Source of the DNA: Pseudomonadota bacterium
Lineage (GTDB): Bacteria > Myxococcota_A > Bradymonadia > UBA4248
Direction of reading: 5' to 3'
DNA: 46,835 nt
Assembly: GCA_017441205.1 (NCBI GenBank)
Contig: JAFRYG010000120.1
Span: forward strand, 1-46,835
Shown here: in pieces, positions 37,350 through 46,835 of the stretch
Layout of the letters: each line of letters starts with the position of its first letter
Position numbering within the stretch: position 1 is the first letter of the stretch
Made by a program: the position numbers and the translations under genes
Notes under the pieces: generated by a model
Told to the model about the DNA's origin: nothing
The model's database searches: none
The model's input: only the letters and a program-made list of their open reading frames with translations

Positions 37350-37742
37350 TTACTCATCCTCTTCATCTTCTTCTTCGTCATCACCGGACTTACCGGATTT
37401 ACCGGATTTACCGCTGTCCTCTTCTTCTTCGTCTGCGTCATCATCACCGGATTTACCGGATTTACCGGATTTACCGCTATCCTCGTCGTCCTCGTCGTCA
37501 TCGTCGTCATCATTTTTGCCCGACTTTTTGGAACTGGACTCGTCGACACTATCCTTGTAATTTTTTTCGGCATCAGCCCGATTCTCTGGGCTTTTATAGC
37601 AGCGATGCGTTACGGTGCTGAAGTATGGATAATCTTCCTGGCATTCGAAAATCTTTGTAAAGCCTTCCTCCGCGCACGACATGGCGAAAAAGGCCACGAA
37701 AGCGAATACGACGAACATATAAAGTTTCATATAAAGGTTCAT
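37350..37742 (-). CDS. Small lipoprotein with polyacidic GKSG tail
   Basis: This 130-residue protein has lipobox FAMSC (Cys23) followed by AEEG. A short Cys-containing part (to about residue 55) is followed by a tail of Asp/Glu runs broken twice by DSGKSGKSGKSGDD. The tail is encoded by repetitive DNA (37375-37510). AGGAG stands six bases before ATG 37742; an ATG four codons later is the alternative. I recognise no family. The tail could bind calcium or act as a surface brush. It lies between the TSP3 lipoprotein gene (20 bases upstream) and folE. Confidence 0.8.
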   Translation of the reverse strand: MNLYMKLYMFVVFAFVAFFAMSCAEEGFTKIFECQEDYPYFSTVTHRCYKSPENRADAEKNYKDSVDESSSKKSGKNDDDDDDEDDEDSGKSGKSGKSGDDDADEEEEDSGKSGKSGKSGDDEEEDEEDE

Positions 37743-37762: not shown

Positions 37763-40240
37763 TTAATCTTCAGCAGTAATTCCGTTGAATTTTTCAGCAT
37801 TGAAGTAAAGCGGCGCGGACTTCCCGAAGCTTGCAGTTCCCTGAACGTGGGATGTCTTGAGCCAATATTTAGGTTTATAGATAACGCCGGTGTTCAGCCA
37901 GTCCTGATTGGTAAGCTTTTCGATACAGGCATCCGTTTTTTTGCCGGAGCATGCGCCGGAGGCAAAATTCTTTCCTTCAAAATGAGTGTATCGGTAATCA
38001 AAACCACCGGTGGTTGAGTTGCCTTGAGACGAATAATACTTGAAGCCGATGATACTATCGTCCCAGGTATCGTGTTCCTTGCAGTTTTTGTCGAGGAATG
38101 AAAGGAATACGACGGCATGTCCTGTACCGCTGGAACGATTCAGATTAATGAAGGATCCCGGAACGAGTTCCTGGAACGGAACCGTAATGCCCATGCCGAA
38201 GGATGACAAGGCATCGCCGGTACCATTGGATCCAATCTTGTTGTCGCACCAGATATGTCCCTTAATGGTCGAACCGGACTGAGATGCCCAGCTCTTCTTG
38301 GGAAGATGATTCCAGACCGAAGTATCGCCGGTTTCCTGAGCATACAGATCCATCGCGACCAGAATCGTTTCGGCAACCGCCGCCACGCACATGGTCAAAG
38401 GAGCCTTGGGGCCTTTCGTGACGACTTCGGATCCATATTTCAGATCGTGCGTATAGGCGCTCGACCCATACCCTCTTCGTGCCCAATTCTTTTCGAGCCA
38501 GGCGACTGCTTTCAAAATGTAGTCATTGAACATGTATTCACCGGTCAGAGCGGCGGGTCTGACACCAAGATCGATGATATAGCGTCCTTTCTTGCCCTGA
38601 CATGCATCTGCAGTCAGATAATAGGTACCTGGATCCAGCGTGGCAAAAGCACGGAAATCCCCTCTCGTAACCAGTTTGGGATCGAGCGATGACAGAATGT
38701 GAATATCCGTATCGGCTCCGGCATCTTCCGGCTTGCGGATCGTTGCCACGACGCGGCTGCGTTCTTTCAGCACGAATTTATAGATAACTTCCGGTCCGCT
38801 TTCGTCGGCATTTTCGTGTCCCGGATAGGTATTGAACACGTTGCTGGTCGCTGTGGCTGTCGAATTGGACTCGGTAAATGCGAAATGCGCCGGCAATGGT
38901 TCTCCGCAATTGATCAGAACCGGATCCTCCTTGGTTCCCGCATAAAACGGTGTAATATCCACGTTGAGGACGTATTTCCCGGGTTTTGTCGTCGAATCAC
39001 CGTAGGTATCCGCGACGATCCAATAGGTTCCGGGGTCAAGCTGCTCTGTAATCGAATTGTCGGAACGATTGATGAAATCCGATGCCGGAACCGTTTTATT
39101 CGAAATGTTGACATTCCTGAGCAGCTGGATATCGATATCGACGTTGCTCGGTTCTGAGTCGAGATAGATGCTGACTTTGGATTTCTTGGTCAGCGTGAAT
39201 TTGTAATAGTACTCGGGACCCGTTTCGGGGGTCTGATTCGGGTTCGGGTATTTGTCGATCAGGCTGTTCGGCGATTTCGAGGTGTCCTGCGTATCCTTGT
39301 ATCCCGACACGCAGCCCTCGACCGGAATGATGAACGGAGAGGTCGGTGAACCGTCGCCTGTTTCGATCTGCGGCAGGAACGGATCGGGCTTGACATCTGG
39401 CGTATCGCATAAATCCCCTACCCCGTTTTTGTTGGAATCCGCCTGATCAGGATTGGGAACGTAGGGACAGTTGTCCTCCGAATCCGGGATTGTGTCGTTG
39501 TCGGCATCTGCCGGTTTTTCTGGAGCGCAGGCATCGCCGATGCCGTCGCCGTCAGAGTCGGTCTGCTCGTGATTGGGAACATCCGGGCAGTTATCTTCGG
39601 CATCCGGGATCGTGTCGCCATCGACATCGGGATTTTCAGCGGGCGTACACACATCACCGATGCCATCCCCGTCGCTGTCCGCCTGATCGGCATTCGAAAT
39701 GCGGGGGCAGTTATCCTCCGAATCCGGAATCGTATCGCCATCCATATCCTCTATGACCGGCTCGGATTCGCTGCAGGCATCCCCTAACCCATCGGTATTG
39801 GAGTCTGCCTGATCCGGGTTCGGAACGAGACGACAATTATCCTTTAAGTCAATGATGGTATCGCCGTCGGTATCTTCAAAAACCTCTTCTTCATCATCAC
39901 AGGCATCGCCCAGACCATTGTTGTTGGTGTCAGCCTGATCCGGATTGGCTACTTCAATGCAGTTGTCACTGACATTCGGAATCGTATCGCCGTCAAAGTC
40001 CGTATTTTCCCCGGTATGTTCATCCTTTTTGCCCGGATATTTGTCGTCATTGTCATCTTCGTCATCTTCTTCATCGTCATCATTGTGTTTTTTGCAGTCT
40101 TTCCCGCACTTGTCCGGATCGCAGTTTTTACCCGAACAGCTTTCACTGTCGGATGCGCTTACATCTTTGTCATCATCGCAAGCGGAAAACAGACAAAACG
40201 CACTCACCAATCCCATAATCAGCAAAGTTTTGTAACGCAT
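37763..40240 (-). CDS. TSP3/PPC lipoprotein with papain-like domain
   Basis: This 825-residue lipoprotein has lipobox LFSAC (Cys21) followed by DDDKD. An acidic stretch is followed by six thrombospondin type 3 calcium repeats (about 80-290, units like DGDTIPDSEDNCP..DQADSDGDGIGD, broken here), two pre-peptidase C-terminal (PPC)-like domains (about 305-425 and 430-560), and a C-terminal domain (about 570-800) with TMCVAAVAET (Cys618) and GTGHAVVF (His708), the Cys/His order of papain-like C39/CHAP enzymes. It may be a surface cysteine peptidase or amidase; the third catalytic residue cannot be fixed. AGGGAG precedes ATG 40240. It heads the run with the polyacidic lipoprotein and folE. Confidence 0.9.
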   Translation of the reverse strand: MRYKTLLIMGLVSAFCLFSACDDDKDVSASDSESCSGKNCDPDKCGKDCKKHNDDDEEDDEDDNDDKYPGKKDEHTGENTDFDGDTIPNVSDNCIEVANPDQADTNNNGLGDACDDEEEVFEDTDGDTIIDLKDNCRLVPNPDQADSNTDGLGDACSESEPVIEDMDGDTIPDSEDNCPRISNADQADSDGDGIGDVCTPAENPDVDGDTIPDAEDNCPDVPNHEQTDSDGDGIGDACAPEKPADADNDTIPDSEDNCPYVPNPDQADSNKNGVGDLCDTPDVKPDPFLPQIETGDGSPTSPFIIPVEGCVSGYKDTQDTSKSPNSLIDKYPNPNQTPETGPEYYYKFTLTKKSKVSIYLDSEPSNVDIDIQLLRNVNISNKTVPASDFINRSDNSITEQLDPGTYWIVADTYGDSTTKPGKYVLNVDITPFYAGTKEDPVLINCGEPLPAHFAFTESNSTATATSNVFNTYPGHENADESGPEVIYKFVLKERSRVVATIRKPEDAGADTDIHILSSLDPKLVTRGDFRAFATLDPGTYYLTADACQGKKGRYIIDLGVRPAALTGEYMFNDYILKAVAWLEKNWARRGYGSSAYTHDLKYGSEVVTKGPKAPLTMCVAAVAETILVAMDLYAQETGDTSVWNHLPKKSWASQSGSTIKGHIWCDNKIGSNGTGDALSSFGMGITVPFQELVPGSFINLNRSSGTGHAVVFLSFLDKNCKEHDTWDDSIIGFKYYSSQGNSTTGGFDYRYTHFEGKNFASGACSGKKTDACIEKLTNQDWLNTGVIYKPKYWLKTSHVQGTASFGKSAPLYFNAEKFNGITAED

Positions 40241-40590
40241 ATAATCGCTCCCTGGCAAAAGACTTGACCCACTACCACCAAATCATTCCCAATATACATG
40301 ATTTGAGCGCAAAACGCCAAAAGCATTTAGCCAATTTGCAATTTTTAAAAGGGATTTTTCCGCGAATGCATAAACACTTGCAAAGTTCCTGTATCCGTGT
40401 ATTTGTCCGTGCTGCGGCCGCCTTTGGGATAAACGGCTATTGGCCTTGCCAATACGCCTTTTGGGGCTCCGCTATCTCGCCGTATCGGCTCAATACGCGT
40501 CGCCCGACTTTTGGTGCGTGTCGGATTTATTGGGTACAGATGTGCAAATCGCACGTCTCTGACAATTCCCAACGCCAACTCCCAATTCAA
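40241..40590. other. Non-coding gap with palindrome and heptads
   Basis: An open frame crosses this region but includes copy 4 of the TATTGGC palindrome and heptad-like text, so I see no gene. The divergent promoters for 40240 and 40591 should lie here. Confidence 0.55.
40430..40463. repeat. Palindromic repeat, TATTGGC core, copy 4
   Basis: Core TATTGGC-CTT-GCCAATA (40438-40454) with outer pairs CGGC/CGCC is followed by TTTT. It is a member of the dispersed family. Confidence 0.7.
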
Positions 40591-41078: not shown

Positions 41079-43964
41079 ATGAAACTGAAACCGATTCTTT
41101 TGTTCGTGGCAAGTATTCTCGCGGTGTCCGGATGTACGGATGCTGTCGATCCGATCGAGCCGGATTTTTCGCAGCACTCAGATCCCATTATGTACGGAAC
41201 CGCCGCACCCAATGAACCAGCGGTCGTGTCTCTGTTTACACCGCATTACCTTCCATGCTCTGAAGAATACAATGAGATTTGTCAGAAATTATATCCAGGC
41301 TATTCAGTAGTCTGTGTTCAGGAGTATGGTGAACCAGAATGCAAATTGGCATGCAAGGCTAAAGGAGAGAAATCTTATAGTTGTAATGATTACACTGATA
41401 GGGGATATGGTTTCATTGAACTTTACACGGAATGTGAGGATTACAACGGGCAGCTGATTCCCGTCCAAAGTCCTAATCTTCATTTCTGCAATAATCGCTG
41501 CGATTCCGAAAATATAAGATGTGATGATAAAGGCCATACAAATTACCTTCCATGCGACAGTGAACTGGCGAAAAAATGCAGTGCAGGGACTGTCTGCATG
41601 ACGGATTTGTCTTATTACTATTGCGCTGAGCCATGTACGACAGAAGGTAAATCAGAAACGGTTTGTGGCCTCAGTGATGCCGGGTATGTCTCAGTAAAGC
41701 ATCAATGCATCAAAATCGGTAATCAATTGCTCAATTTGGTGGATAATGAAAATTTCTATTATTGTAAGAATGGCTGCAACATCTCCCAGACAGACTGCGA
41801 CAACAAAGGCAAACTTAAGAAAATTTCAGGCTCTTCCCACTGCACAGGTACGCTCATTCATCCCCAGTGGGTTCTGACCGCTGCGCACTGCGTTATAGAC
41901 AAGGAAACAGGCAGCCCTTCTTCCAGCAACATATTCGCCAGAATCGGTATCGGCGATAACGAGAATGAACTGATACCGCTTGAAACTGCCGGTGCGGAGT
42001 ATTTTATCGCCAATCCAAAGTATAAATATAGAGTTGGTAATACATCTGATGATGTCACCATTACTCGCGACATTGCGTTGATTAAACTGAAAGAACCTGT
42101 GTCAGCCAATCTGGCAACACCAATTTTGCCGCTTCCAAAGTGGCTGGCATTGACCAACAAAGATATGCCGGTTTCGGTGGAAACCATCGGTTTTGGGTTC
42201 GACGAAAATGGCGGATACGGAACAAAATTAAAGGTTACCCATCCTAAATTGAATTACTGCCCATTCGATCCAAACAATGTTGAGACGAAATGTCCTATGG
42301 GAACCGTCACTGTCAAAGGATGTCATCCGAACAAGGATTATTGTGAACGTTACGGCTATTCCAATGAAACGTACAATTTGGACATTATCAATGGATCGCT
42401 TTTTTCCAAAATCCCGGAAGGTGGTCAATGCCATGGCGATTCCGGCGGTCCGACATTCTATACCGTTGGAAACAAACGTTACGTTGCTGGTGTGACGAGC
42501 TATGGTGATGGCGTATGTCGTGCATACGATGTGGATACCGCAGTTCAGGATTATTACGACTGGATCATCAGCATCGCCCCCGAAGTGGCGGATCAATATG
42601 TCGAGATTTGCGGCAATGGCGTCGATGACGATGGCAATGGACTCGTCGATGGCGATGATCCTGTATGTTTTTGCGGCAATGGCAGACTCGATCCCAAAGA
42701 AACGTGCGACGGTACCCTCTTTGCCGGTGGTTCTGACAAATGCACTGATATCGATGCCGCCTTTACGAGCGGAAAAGCCACATGCAGTAAAAAATGTGAG
42801 CTCGAACTTGCACAATGTTCAAAGGATCCGATTTGCGGCGATGGCCGAATCGATGGCAATGAACTCTGCGACGGCAATCTGTTCGTCGATGAAAAAACGG
42901 AATGCAGCGCGCTGTTCGCCGACCTTTATTCCGGCGGCGACGTTAAATGCAGCGAAAAATGTGTTTACGATACCTCTGCATGCATACCTTTTTGCGGCAA
43001 TGGAATCATCGATACAGATCGAGGGGAAGTCTGTGATGGCAGCGTGTTTGCGGAAGCTGCCGACAGCTGTGAAAGAATCGTTGGTAAGGGGGCTGTCGGT
43101 ACCATCGCCTGTTCAGATGATTGCAAGACTGTGAACACTGCGGCATGTTCCAAGCCGGAGACATGCGGCGATGGCATTCTGAATGGTGATGAGCTGTGCG
43201 ACGGTACACAGATTCAGGATAATAAGTTCTCATGCATGGATTGGGATTCCAAATATATTTCAGGAAATGTCAAATGTAATTCGGAATGCACGCTCGATTT
43301 CGGCGAGTGTAAAACGGATGCTTTGAGCACGAACGAGATTTGTGACAATCAAGTCGATGACGATAATAACGGACTCGCTGACTGTAATGACCCTGTTTGC
43401 TTTGCGAATGAAGTCTGCAAGCCTGCGTCAGAATGCGGCAATGGGATTGTCGATGGCAATGAATTGTGTGATAGGGAATCATTTTTATCGGGTAAAACGA
43501 ACTGCAGTGACTGGATGAGCTCTTACAAATCCGGCACAGTGACGTGCAATAATGATTGTACTATCAATTATGATGCATGTTCGACAGAACCCGGCACTCA
43601 GGAAACGCCGACGACACCCGGAACAGAAACGCCGACGACACCCGGTACTCAAACACCGACGACGCCCGGTACTGAAACACCGACGACGCCCGGTACTCCG
43701 GGAACGCCGACGACGCCTGGTCCTGAAACGCCGACGACGCCTGGTCCTGAAACGCCGACGACGCCCGGTACTCCGGGAGCACCGTCCACTCCGGGTACTC
43801 AGGATCCATCTGTCGATCCGGGATCTCCTGATTCGGAAAAGAAGGGATCTGGTGATTCCGACTGTTCGACGGCACCAAAGGTCCCCTCGGAAATGCCTGT
43901 CACTGCTATTTTCATGGGGTTGCTGGGATGCGGCATACTCGCCCGCAGACGGCGCGATAATTGA
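41079..43964 (+). CDS. Trypsin-like lipoprotein with Cys-rich insertion, MYXO-CTERM-like tail
   Basis: This 961-residue lipoprotein has lipobox AVSGC followed by TDAVD. The trypsin domain begins at Ile37 (IMYGTAAPNEPAVVSLF), is interrupted by a Cys-rich insert of about 195 residues, and resumes at about residue 253 with His270 (TAAHC), Asp331 (RDIAL) and Ser455 (GDSGGP). Residues about 505-835 hold CGNG..D..E.CDG modules. A Thr/Pro linker (PTTPGTE repeats) follows, then DCSTAPK, one hydrophobic stretch and ARRRRDN, as in MYXO-CTERM sorting tails. The ATG has AGGGAG upstream; a TTG one codon earlier is ignored. It probably processes proteins at the cell surface. A tandem paralogue follows. Confidence 0.92.
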   Translation: MKLKPILLFVASILAVSGCTDAVDPIEPDFSQHSDPIMYGTAAPNEPAVVSLFTPHYLPCSEEYNEICQKLYPGYSVVCVQEYGEPECKLACKAKGEKSYSCNDYTDRGYGFIELYTECEDYNGQLIPVQSPNLHFCNNRCDSENIRCDDKGHTNYLPCDSELAKKCSAGTVCMTDLSYYYCAEPCTTEGKSETVCGLSDAGYVSVKHQCIKIGNQLLNLVDNENFYYCKNGCNISQTDCDNKGKLKKISGSSHCTGTLIHPQWVLTAAHCVIDKETGSPSSSNIFARIGIGDNENELIPLETAGAEYFIANPKYKYRVGNTSDDVTITRDIALIKLKEPVSANLATPILPLPKWLALTNKDMPVSVETIGFGFDENGGYGTKLKVTHPKLNYCPFDPNNVETKCPMGTVTVKGCHPNKDYCERYGYSNETYNLDIINGSLFSKIPEGGQCHGDSGGPTFYTVGNKRYVAGVTSYGDGVCRAYDVDTAVQDYYDWIISIAPEVADQYVEICGNGVDDDGNGLVDGDDPVCFCGNGRLDPKETCDGTLFAGGSDKCTDIDAAFTSGKATCSKKCELELAQCSKDPICGDGRIDGNELCDGNLFVDEKTECSALFADLYSGGDVKCSEKCVYDTSACIPFCGNGIIDTDRGEVCDGSVFAEAADSCERIVGKGAVGTIACSDDCKTVNTAACSKPETCGDGILNGDELCDGTQIQDNKFSCMDWDSKYISGNVKCNSECTLDFGECKTDALSTNEICDNQVDDDNNGLADCNDPVCFANEVCKPASECGNGIVDGNELCDRESFLSGKTNCSDWMSSYKSGTVTCNNDCTINYDACSTEPGTQETPTTPGTETPTTPGTQTPTTPGTETPTTPGTPGTPTTPGPETPTTPGPETPTTPGTPGAPSTPGTQDPSVDPGSPDSEKKGSGDSDCSTAPKVPSEMPVTAIFMGLLGCGILARRRRDN
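43600..43830 (+). repeat. In-frame Thr/Pro linker repeats
   Basis: Repeated units of about 24 bases encode PTTPGTE, PTTPGTQ or PTTPGPE. They form the stalk between the Cys-rich modules and the C-terminal tail of the protease. The length is likely to vary. Confidence 0.85.
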
Positions 43965-44453
43965 TTGGATTATGGGGCGTCGATCAGGCGCCCAGTTCTC
44001 TCCTCCTCTCCCAGCGGTTTGTTCGGCAACGTGACTATTTGAATTGACTTTCCAATGCCCGTTTGTCCTTTTTTCAATCCTAAAAATGGGGAATGTCAAT
44101 CAAAACACCTACATACTACGTCTTGCGTTTTGTTTTATATTCAGATATCAACAATAATATAAAGATATCATACAGATAATTATCCAGCAACTGCATTATA
44201 ATCTTCAATATATTAGCAATATTGAATCAAATTTTTTGTTATAGCATAAAAATGTTGATTTTCAGAACTTAATTCACGCACAACCATCAGAAATAATTTA
44301 TTTAGATAAAACAAAGATTAATAATTTTTTAATAAAAATATCTTGAAATAATTGTAACGATCTGGTCTTCTCGTTACAGATATGCAAAAAATGGCTTTTT
44401 TGCTGCGTTTTGCAATCTTATTGTTATTACATTAAAAACGTTTGAGGTATATT
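43965..44453. other. AT-rich non-coding gap
   Basis: No gene is seen. From about 44090 to 44440 the DNA is much richer in A and T than the rest of the window, with many TAAT and ATATTA words. It must contain the promoter of the gene at 44454, but no single -10/-35 pair stands out. I see no clear terminator after 43964. Confidence 0.6.
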
Positions 44454-46835
44454 ATGCGTAACAAATTGTATTTATTGATAATGATTGGTGTTCTTCTTTC
44501 ATCATGTCACGAAAACGAAGATACGCTTGTTCCTTCCGAACTGAGTTCTCATACTCAGGCGATTGTGAATGGTACTCCGGCAACGGATGAACCCTATACG
44601 GTAGCTCTTTTTAACATGTACAGTAAGGACAATTCCAACATTCTATGCAATCCTGAGATGGATGCAGAGGGGATTAAGCTATGTCAGGAATATGGACCTG
44701 ATTATACATGTGGTTTCTACGCTGATCAATTGTCATGCTTCCAAACCTGTTCACATGAAGGTGAAATGCAGGATTTTTGTTATGAGAAGCCAATTTACAA
44801 TATCTTTGGTCAGGATGACAAAGATAATTACAAAAGAGATGTTGCAATTCTGATGCAATGTCTGAATAAAGATGGAACGCTCATCTGGCATCGGATGGAC
44901 AGCACAAAACCAGCAAGAATCTGTCGCAATGCCTGCAATTCCAAGGGGACGGATTGTGATGATGCAGGCGGAGAGGAATACAGAATTTGCGAGAAAGAAG
45001 AAACTGCCAGCTGCAGCCTGCTAATGGAGAATGATACGTGTATTTTTAATGACGAGTCTTTGACCTGTACTGATTATTGTGAAAAAGAGGGGGCGTTACG
45101 AAAAATCTGCGAATATGACTATGTATTTCATGCGTCAACCCGCGTTGAGACTTGTACAAAAGTCGAAGACAAGCTCGTGTTTATTGAGGATAAAGATCAG
45201 AGCTATGTATGCAAAAATGAATGCAATGCATCGAAAACGGACTGCGACGCGGAAGGTCCTGTTGGGTATCCGGATGCAGATTTGGTGAAAGATGGTGATA
45301 TCGTTTCGGGCGATTCATTCTGCACGGGTACTCTGATTCACCCCCGGTGGATTCTGACTGCAGCTCACTGTGTGGTGGATTTGAATTATTTTTTGTTGAA
45401 TGACCTGGTGCGTCATGGCTGGGTTGGCGTCGGTATCAATGACAAAGCAATGATGACGTACCGGATCAACGAGCTTAAAAATATTTATTATCATCCTGAT
45501 TTTTCAAAGGAATATGAGTCGGATATTGCGCTTGTTCAACTCAAATCCCCTGTTCCGTCGAATGTCGCAGAGCCGGTTTTGCCGCTGCCTAAATGGCTTG
45601 CACTGACCTCAAAGAATTTGCCGGTTAAGATGGATGTGAGCGGATTTGGATTTGATGAAAATGGGAAAACCGGAACCAAAAATACGACATCACTGCAAAC
45701 GACGCATTACTGTGGGGTATTCAATCCATCTGATCCCCAAATGGGCTGCTATGCCGGTAACTACACAATAAACGGATGTCATCCCAATCCGACCTATTGT
45801 GCGGTAGATGGGGCTTTCAATAATGAGGTCTATTCCTTGACTATTCCTTATGGATCATTTCTTGCTTCCATGTACAACACCGGCTCCTGTCAGGGAGATT
45901 CCGGCGGACCGAATTATTATACGGTTGGGGGCAAACGTTATGTCGCGGGGATTACGAGCACTGGAGATCCAACCTGTCGCAGTATTGGGATTTCCACGGC
46001 TGTTCAGGATTACTATGACTGGATTATTTCCATCGCTCCAGAAATCGCTGAACAATACAAGGAAATATGCGGCAATGATGTCGATGATGATGGCAATGGT
46101 CTGAAGGATTGTGATGATCCGGCATGTGCAGCGCATGAAAGCTGCAAATCCATTCCCAAATGCGGCAACGGAATTCTGGATGATGGAGAAGATTGCGATG
46201 GAAATGCATTTTTATCTGATAGAAATCAATGTGTTATGTGGTCAAATACATATTCCTCCGGCAATGTGGCATGCAATCCGGACTGCACGATCAATTATGA
46301 TAAATGCACGCTGATTCAAGAAGAAATCTGCGACAATAAAGTCGATGACGATGGCAATGGTCTGGTAGATTGCAATGATCCAGCATGTGCGACGCACGAA
46401 AGCTGCAAATCCATTCCAAAATGCGGCAACGGAATTCTGGATGACGGAGAAGATTGCGATGGAAATGCATTTTTATCCAATAAAAATCAATGTGTTATGT
46501 GGTCAAATGCATATTCATCCGGCAATGTAGCATGCAATCCGGACTGCACGATCAATTATGATCAGTGTTTGGCAAGTTCAGCAGAAGTCTGCGACAATAA
46601 AGTCGATGACGATGGCAATGGGCTGGTGGATTGCAGTGATCCGGCATGTTTTGGCAATACGGCATGCAATGCCAAAGCTGCCTGCGGCAATGGGAACGTC
46701 GATACCGGTGAGGATTGCGACAGGAGTGCATTCAGAGACAATAAAGTACAGTGCAGCTCATGGCGAAGTATCTTTAAGTCCGGGATGGTGACGTGCAATG
46801 ATAACTGTACGATCAATTACGGTGGCTGTTCGACA
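44454..46835 (+). CDS. Second trypsin-like lipoprotein with Cys-rich insertion, partial
   Basis: The frame is open to the window end (794 codons), so the C-terminus is missing. Lipobox LLSSC (Cys19) is followed by HENED. The trypsin domain begins at Ile37 (IVNGTPATDEPYTVALF). A Cys-rich insert of about 230 residues follows, and the fold resumes near residue 290 with His305 (TAAHC), Asp357 (SDIAL) and Ser483 (GDSGG). From about residue 535 there are repeated CDN..DDDGNGL.DC and CGNGILDDGEDCDG modules. GAGG precedes ATG 44454. It is a tandem paralogue of the gene at 41079, with low similarity in the insert and high similarity after His305. Confidence 0.93.
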   Translation, partial: MRNKLYLLIMIGVLLSSCHENEDTLVPSELSSHTQAIVNGTPATDEPYTVALFNMYSKDNSNILCNPEMDAEGIKLCQEYGPDYTCGFYADQLSCFQTCSHEGEMQDFCYEKPIYNIFGQDDKDNYKRDVAILMQCLNKDGTLIWHRMDSTKPARICRNACNSKGTDCDDAGGEEYRICEKEETASCSLLMENDTCIFNDESLTCTDYCEKEGALRKICEYDYVFHASTRVETCTKVEDKLVFIEDKDQSYVCKNECNASKTDCDAEGPVGYPDADLVKDGDIVSGDSFCTGTLIHPRWILTAAHCVVDLNYFLLNDLVRHGWVGVGINDKAMMTYRINELKNIYYHPDFSKEYESDIALVQLKSPVPSNVAEPVLPLPKWLALTSKNLPVKMDVSGFGFDENGKTGTKNTTSLQTTHYCGVFNPSDPQMGCYAGNYTINGCHPNPTYCAVDGAFNNEVYSLTIPYGSFLASMYNTGSCQGDSGGPNYYTVGGKRYVAGITSTGDPTCRSIGISTAVQDYYDWIISIAPEIAEQYKEICGNDVDDDGNGLKDCDDPACAAHESCKSIPKCGNGILDDGEDCDGNAFLSDRNQCVMWSNTYSSGNVACNPDCTINYDKCTLIQEEICDNKVDDDGNGLVDCNDPACATHESCKSIPKCGNGILDDGEDCDGNAFLSNKNQCVMWSNAYSSGNVACNPDCTINYDQCLASSAEVCDNKVDDDGNGLVDCSDPACFGNTACNAKAACGNGNVDTGEDCDRSAFRDNKVQCSSWRSIFKSGMVTCNDNCTINYGGCST
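46062..46835 (+). repeat. Repeated Cys-rich module, about 255-260 bases
   Basis: Two units (46062-46311 and 46324-46567) are almost identical in DNA, sharing long runs around TGCGGCAACGGAATTCTGGA. A third, more divergent unit starts at about 46585 and runs off the window. They encode DDDGNGL..DC and CGNG..D.GEDCD modules and show recent in-frame duplication. Confidence 0.85.

Follow-up and report, generated by a model that had tools for sequence, protein, structure and literature searches.

A duplicated ten-cysteine module in the 37-loop of two neighbouring surface S1 proteases of a gut-associated myxobacterium: a putative target-recognition attachment

The window, that is the whole stretch of DNA analysed (46,835 nucleotides), is the complete contig C37 of the assembly of a gut-associated myxobacterium, which amounts to 4.36 Mb in 221 contigs. 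It carries two single-frame ORFs, 41079-43964 and 44454-46835 (contig end), whose products are neighbouring surface S1 proteases, the second gene being cut by the end of the contig. The features of the two genes are as follows.

41079..43964, + strand: protease 1 (P0001), ORF with ATG at 41079 (Pfam Trypsin 1.8e-20); its layout is a lipoprotein-type signal (VSGC), an S1 domain with insert, disulfide repeats, a Pro/Thr-rich spacer and a MYXO-CTERM-like tail (Cys, hydrophobic stretch and RRRR)
41187..41243, + strand: protease 1, I16 segment and first strand (IMYGTAAPNEPAVVSLFTP), from alignment with insert-free paralogues and an AF2 strand at model residues 19-25
41247..41543, + strand: protease 1, module 1 with ten Cys (profile match 123 bits; alignment)
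41544..41816, + strand: protease 1, module 2 with ten Cys (profile match 114 bits; alignment)
41841..42599, + strand: protease 1, remaining S1 domain with C42, H57 (41886), D102 (42069) and S195 (42441), from PF00089, invariant columns and the motif table
42600..43964, + strand: protease 1, disulfide-repeat stalk (NF033662 3e-7, below cut-off), Thr/Pro repeats and MYXO-CTERM-like anchor (TIGR03901 15.3 bits, cut-off 20)
44454..46835, + strand: protease 2 (P0002), truncated by the contig end, ORF (Pfam Trypsin 4.7e-26)
44562..44618, + strand: protease 2, I16 segment and first strand (IVNGTPATDEPYTVALFNM), from alignment and invariant columns
44637..44975, + strand: protease 2, module 1 with ten Cys and a C6-C7 loop 13 residues above the usual length (profile match 123.9 bits; Cys spacings)
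44979..45263, + strand: protease 2, module 2 with ten Cys (profile match 124.8 bits; AF2 of the insert alone, pLDDT 85.3)
45321..46058, + strand: protease 2, remaining S1 domain from C42 with intact triad (PF00089, alignment, motif table)
46059..46835, + strand: protease 2, acidic double-disulfide repeats up to the contig end (NF033662 64.9 bits, cut-off 41)

The last 99 bases before position 46835 recur identically in contig C73, and the contig break in protease 2 thus sits within a repeat. Contig C73 encodes a C-terminal repeat region approximately 90% identical to that of protease 2 and ending in a MYXO-CTERM-like tail, and it may represent the continuation of protease 2, a paralogue or a strain variant. 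On the opposite strand, 37763-40258 encodes a secreted protein with five thrombospondin type 3 repeats and a PPC domain, the C-terminal part of which (from about residue 590) has no Pfam match and, by eye only, the look of a papain/C39-type cysteine peptidase. Also on this strand is a small lipoprotein-like ORF (37350-37742) made up of acidic D/E runs and SGKSGK repeats.

Both ORFs are, from their sequences, S1 proteases with intact triads and putative activity. They match the Pfam Trypsin family (PF00089) with 74.1 and 92.4 bits (cut-off 20.6), and the triad motifs TAAHC, DIAL and GDSGGP are present in the two and in all other proteins found to carry the insert described below (13/13 carriers). 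Fold matches of the protease in the PDB include thrombin, tryptase and activated protein C (APC). Position 189, six residues before S195, is Gly in all carriers and not Asp, so trypsin-like specificity, with cleavage after Arg or Lys, is not expected. The residue preceding I16 is A, P, G or S in each of the 13 and never Arg or Lys, which makes a trypsin-type activating cleavage unlikely, and another form of control may be needed; such residues could be compatible with self-activation through a small-residue specificity. The insert-free paralogues have a similar kind of sequence ahead of I16. Both proteins are disulfide-rich over their whole length. The insert-bearing proteases have a lipoprotein-type signal, and the 12 carriers whose C-terminus is complete end in a tail of Cys, helix and Arg, protease 2 being the one cut off. 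With TIGR03901, the MYXO-CTERM profile, protease 1 scores 15.3 bits and two carriers of contig C23 score 26.9 and 26.5 bits (cut-off 20), the latter two being among at least 17 tails of this genome which exceed the cut-off. MYXO-CTERM is a tail that places proteins at the cell surface (PMC11980579).

The first-pass annotation had pointed to a long Cys-rich stretch between the first trypsin strand and the CTGTLIHP..TAAHC segment of both proteases, and this is borne out. The distance from I16 to C42 is 218 residues in protease 1 and 253 in protease 2, of which the Cys-rich insert accounts for 198 and 233, while in insert-free paralogues of the same genome it is 29-33 residues (33 in the paralogue on contig C193, MLNGT..AVVGIYQKDGNYSCGDDMLFCTGTLIHP, and 29 in those on C151, C35, C109 and C48). 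The best Pfam Trypsin stretch of both proteases begins barely ahead of C42, at profile position 22-24, because some 200 residues part C42 from the first strand. When 15 related proteins are aligned, the insert falls after the strand that ends VVSLF (protease 1) or TVALF (protease 2) and before C42, a place which is the 37-loop in chymotrypsin numbering. The first strand is canonical in both, reading I-M-Y-G-T..P-A-V-V-S-L-F in protease 1 and I-V-N-G-T..P-Y-T-V-A-L-F in protease 2, and aligns to insert-free paralogues, where the segment is 29-35 residues ahead of C42; in the AlphaFold model strands flank the insert, VVSLFT just before it and CTGTLI just after. With alignment and model in agreement, the I-x-x-G-T segment is the first strand of the protease, as had been proposed, and a misassigned strand does not account for the long spacing. 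Among the S1 proteins collected, the spacing of I16 to H57 is 36-64 residues in 54 and 233-268 in 13, with none intermediate; three further S1 proteins were missed by the motif search and their spacing is normal by eye. The count of proteins with an insert at this place, for which the annotation had called, is therefore 13 carriers against 54 with normal spacing.

Alignment shows that the insert is built from a module of approximately 95 residues and ten cysteines, present as a tandem pair. Exactly two modules are present in every one of the 13 carriers, the link between them has a constant length of 10 residues throughout, and the Cys spacing is nearly fixed. The module profile matches 26 copies at fixed places in the 13 proteins, which excludes chance. 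Twenty Cys per insert are found in 12 of the carriers, and in the exceptional one Cys2 and Cys4 of module 2 are both missing; their joint loss suggests that Cys2 and Cys4 of the module are disulfide-bonded. Between protease 1 and protease 2 the identity is 27% in the insert against 51% in the catalytic part, and among all 13 sequences only 3 non-Cys columns of the insert are invariant, compared to 72 in the catalytic part, the invariant insert columns being Cys, Gly and Asp only. The earlier statement that the insert differs strongly between the two copies is thus correct as regards identity but incomplete, as both share the two-module architecture, the 20 Cys and the same framework.

AlphaFold gives the insert a confident fold, with a mean pLDDT of 85.3 for that of protease 2 alone and 81.7 for a model of the protease 1 insert together with its catalytic domain; each module is predicted to form a helix, a hairpin and three longer strands. 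The models support an independently folding unit. Searches of the profile and structure libraries, which the annotation had also proposed, returned no relative: no Pfam or NCBIfam entry matched the insert module above cut-off, the acid_disulf_rpt family (NF033662) did not match the modules, and no match was found among PDB sequences or relative in the viral contigs searched. A Foldseek search with the module pair as query against the PDB and viral models gave nothing significant (best PDB E-value 0.13, criterion E <0.001). A scorpion toxin and others were considered as PDB relatives of the module profile, but with a best E-value of 0.028 these were judged to be chance. The module would seem to represent a disulfide-rich domain family that has not been described before and is limited to a single, little-studied family of gut Myxococcota.

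The 13 carriers occur in five genomes of one genus, with five in the genome of the window and eight in four MAGs (Myxococcales UBA4248, water buffalo rectum, roe deer omasum and uncultured Myxococcales bacterium). The combination of protease and insert is present in 5/6 genomes of the genus, 0/2 sister genera and 0/50 further genomes. The module itself is wider in occurrence; a profile built from protease and lipoprotein modules finds it in 8/8 genomes of the family of the window and in 0/276 others of the phylum, and an earlier module profile matched 8/143 relatives, all within that family. A pattern scan of the genomes of 84,980 species, which reaches close relatives only, gave matches in the same group only. 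Outside the proteases, other secreted lipoproteins rich in Cys contain one or more copies of the module, which is often their last domain. There is a large family of Cys-rich lipoproteins with short C..G...C..GC..G.C repeats and the module at the end (L039, L040, L042-L044, L090-L097), and the Cys-rich repeat lipoproteins scanned had no significant Pfam match. Within the same genus 13 S1 relatives lack the insert. The UBA4248 contig DGWW01000237.1 (L084, L075) has an array of six S1 proteases in about 20 kb, four with the insert and two without. In a further genome of the same class around eight S1 proteases, all without insert, form an array (L159, G037:C15); one of them has an I16-C42 spacing of 44 residues with an acidic loop.

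In the tree of the catalytic part the 13 carriers make up one side of a branch (support 33/47), which is compatible with, and gives weak support to, a single origin of the insert, for which one change suffices. Of the six catalytic clades, four recur in the insert tree (W1 with UBA4248, C70 with UBA4248, the C23 pair and the trio of UBA4248 and RGIG), and insert and engine are thus inherited jointly. Swapping of modules among paralogues is not favoured, the supported catalytic pairs being kept in the insert tree and no donor being found for the diverged inserts. The question of whether the module was duplicated ahead of the divergence of the paralogues was put to a module tree, which is unresolved, with a module 1 clade not rejected (p 0.37) and a module 2 clade marginally rejected (p 0.04). 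In six of the seven within-clade pairs conservation is lowest in the insert, below both catalytic part and stalk (for example insert 36%, catalytic part 77%, stalk 70%). The seventh, the closest orthologue pair, has the insert as its best conserved part (92% vs 88% catalytic and 85% stalk), keeps 91% of the non-Cys insert residues and has a dN/dS of 0.05 for the insert and 0.09 for the catalytic part, which argues that the insert is not simply drifting. No positive (diversifying) selection on the insert was detected, dN/dS being <1 in every pair with dS saturated in most.

Rapid sequence change around a fixed Cys skeleton makes the module pair a plausible target-recognition attachment, albeit a putative one. 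In related proteases the 37-loop contacts the substrate and shifts site preference, as described for thrombin and APC with PAR1 (PMC13200511). It is estimated that there is about an even chance of the insert being a domain that serves recognition in the manner of an exosite, from the primed side of the cleft. The modules would project from the primed (S1'-S2') rim and bind the substrate or its surroundings, presenting the substrate to the conserved catalytic engine, and paralogues with the same engine would thereby acquire different targets. The engine itself would stand on the disulfide-rich stalk, with the MYXO-CTERM-like tail holding the protease at the outer membrane.

Since the 37-loop makes substrate contact in thrombin and APC and has a controlling role in HtrA proteases, this place in the fold could hold an exosite as well as a lock. 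With an auto-inhibitory or allosteric lock, the modules would obstruct or deform the active site and be freed by a ligand, by cleavage or by a change of oligomer. Precedents are LoopA of HtrA, a 37-loop governing activity from 30 Å away (PMC9445180), and loop LA of DegP, which in the resting hexamer screens the active centre, an effect tuned by the loop's disulfide (PMC4339722), and the missing Arg or Lys before I16 would suit a form of control other than trypsin-type cleavage. However, that trait is shared with the insert-free paralogues and is hence independent of the insert, and no PDZ domain (Pfam, E-value up to 0.1) or other HtrA trait was found in either protease. A common lock would also be expected to retain contact residues, and the few invariant non-Cys columns speak somewhat against it; it is this missing conserved surface which argues for recognition of partners that vary rather than for a shared lock, and the lock is considered unlikely. 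The invariant insert columns, limited to Cys, Gly and Asp, together with the 20 Cys per insert and the disulfide-rich character of both proteins, would fit modules that are merely passive armour or a spacer, stabilising the loop and shielding it from other gut proteases while their surface drifts. Nevertheless, this is judged similarly improbable, given the retention of non-Cys insert residues at a level above catalytic identity (91% vs 88%) in the closest orthologue pair, the 13 relatives in the genus which manage without an insert, and the strict number of modules with their constant link.

A role in docking or oligomerisation, in which inserts pair with each other or with the free-standing modules of surface lipoproteins to form a surface complex, would draw on the many further secreted proteins in which these genomes encode the same module; between modules, however, there is no conserved patch beyond Cys, Gly and Asp, and of the explanations weighed here it is regarded as the least probable. 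The recognition domain is the preferred reading. Of the roles suggested in the first-pass annotation (exosite, lock, or target-binding domain varying between paralogues), what holds is an independently folding unit in the 37-loop that varies between paralogues, as seen in alignment, AlphaFold models and identities, while the duplication of a ten-Cys module that also occurs outside proteases had been missed. The fuller picture can be offered only tentatively and is somewhat doubtful: these would be gut myxobacterial surface proteases with a variable recognition head, in which a fixed two-module scaffold of 20 Cys and undescribed fold is set in the 37-loop, its surface being rewritten between paralogues and so retargeting one conserved engine.

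Terminal domain additions are common in trypsin-like proteases. A folded two-domain insertion within the trypsin-like barrel is, to our knowledge, unusual, and no parallel was found in the literature on S1 proteases with inserted or Cys-rich domains. The triad, I16-x-x-G, C42-C58 and GDSGGP are common to the S1 peptidases (PF00089) and the present proteins, which are set apart by approximately 200 extra residues in the 37-loop and by Gly, not Asp, at 189. In HtrA/DegP the loop at this place of the fold is also enlarged, and in DegP it contains a disulfide and is regulatory, but DegP loop LA is just one loop with no domains inside it, whereas the insert here comprises two predicted folded modules of ten Cys each; with no PDZ in either protease, HtrA/DegP is an analogue at most. 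The acid_disulf_rpt family (NF033662) resembles the disulfide repeats downstream of the catalytic domain and leaves the insert modules unmatched. Vibrio VesB and other C-terminally sorted surface serine proteases likewise have a C-terminal tripartite tag which retains the protease at the surface (PMC11980579). The VesB tag is GlyGly-CTERM while the tag here is MYXO-CTERM-like, and VesB is set beside these proteins by description and not by sequence. We know of no 37-loop domain in VesB. What is known, then, is an ordinary S1 protease and an insert site with functional precedent in DegP loop LA; what is new is the module pair and its placement, without a described match in the libraries and literature searched. 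The module appears to add an undescribed disulfide-rich domain family from gut Myxococcota, and since carriers and insert-free sisters share genomes, the effect of one insertion on specificity is directly testable.
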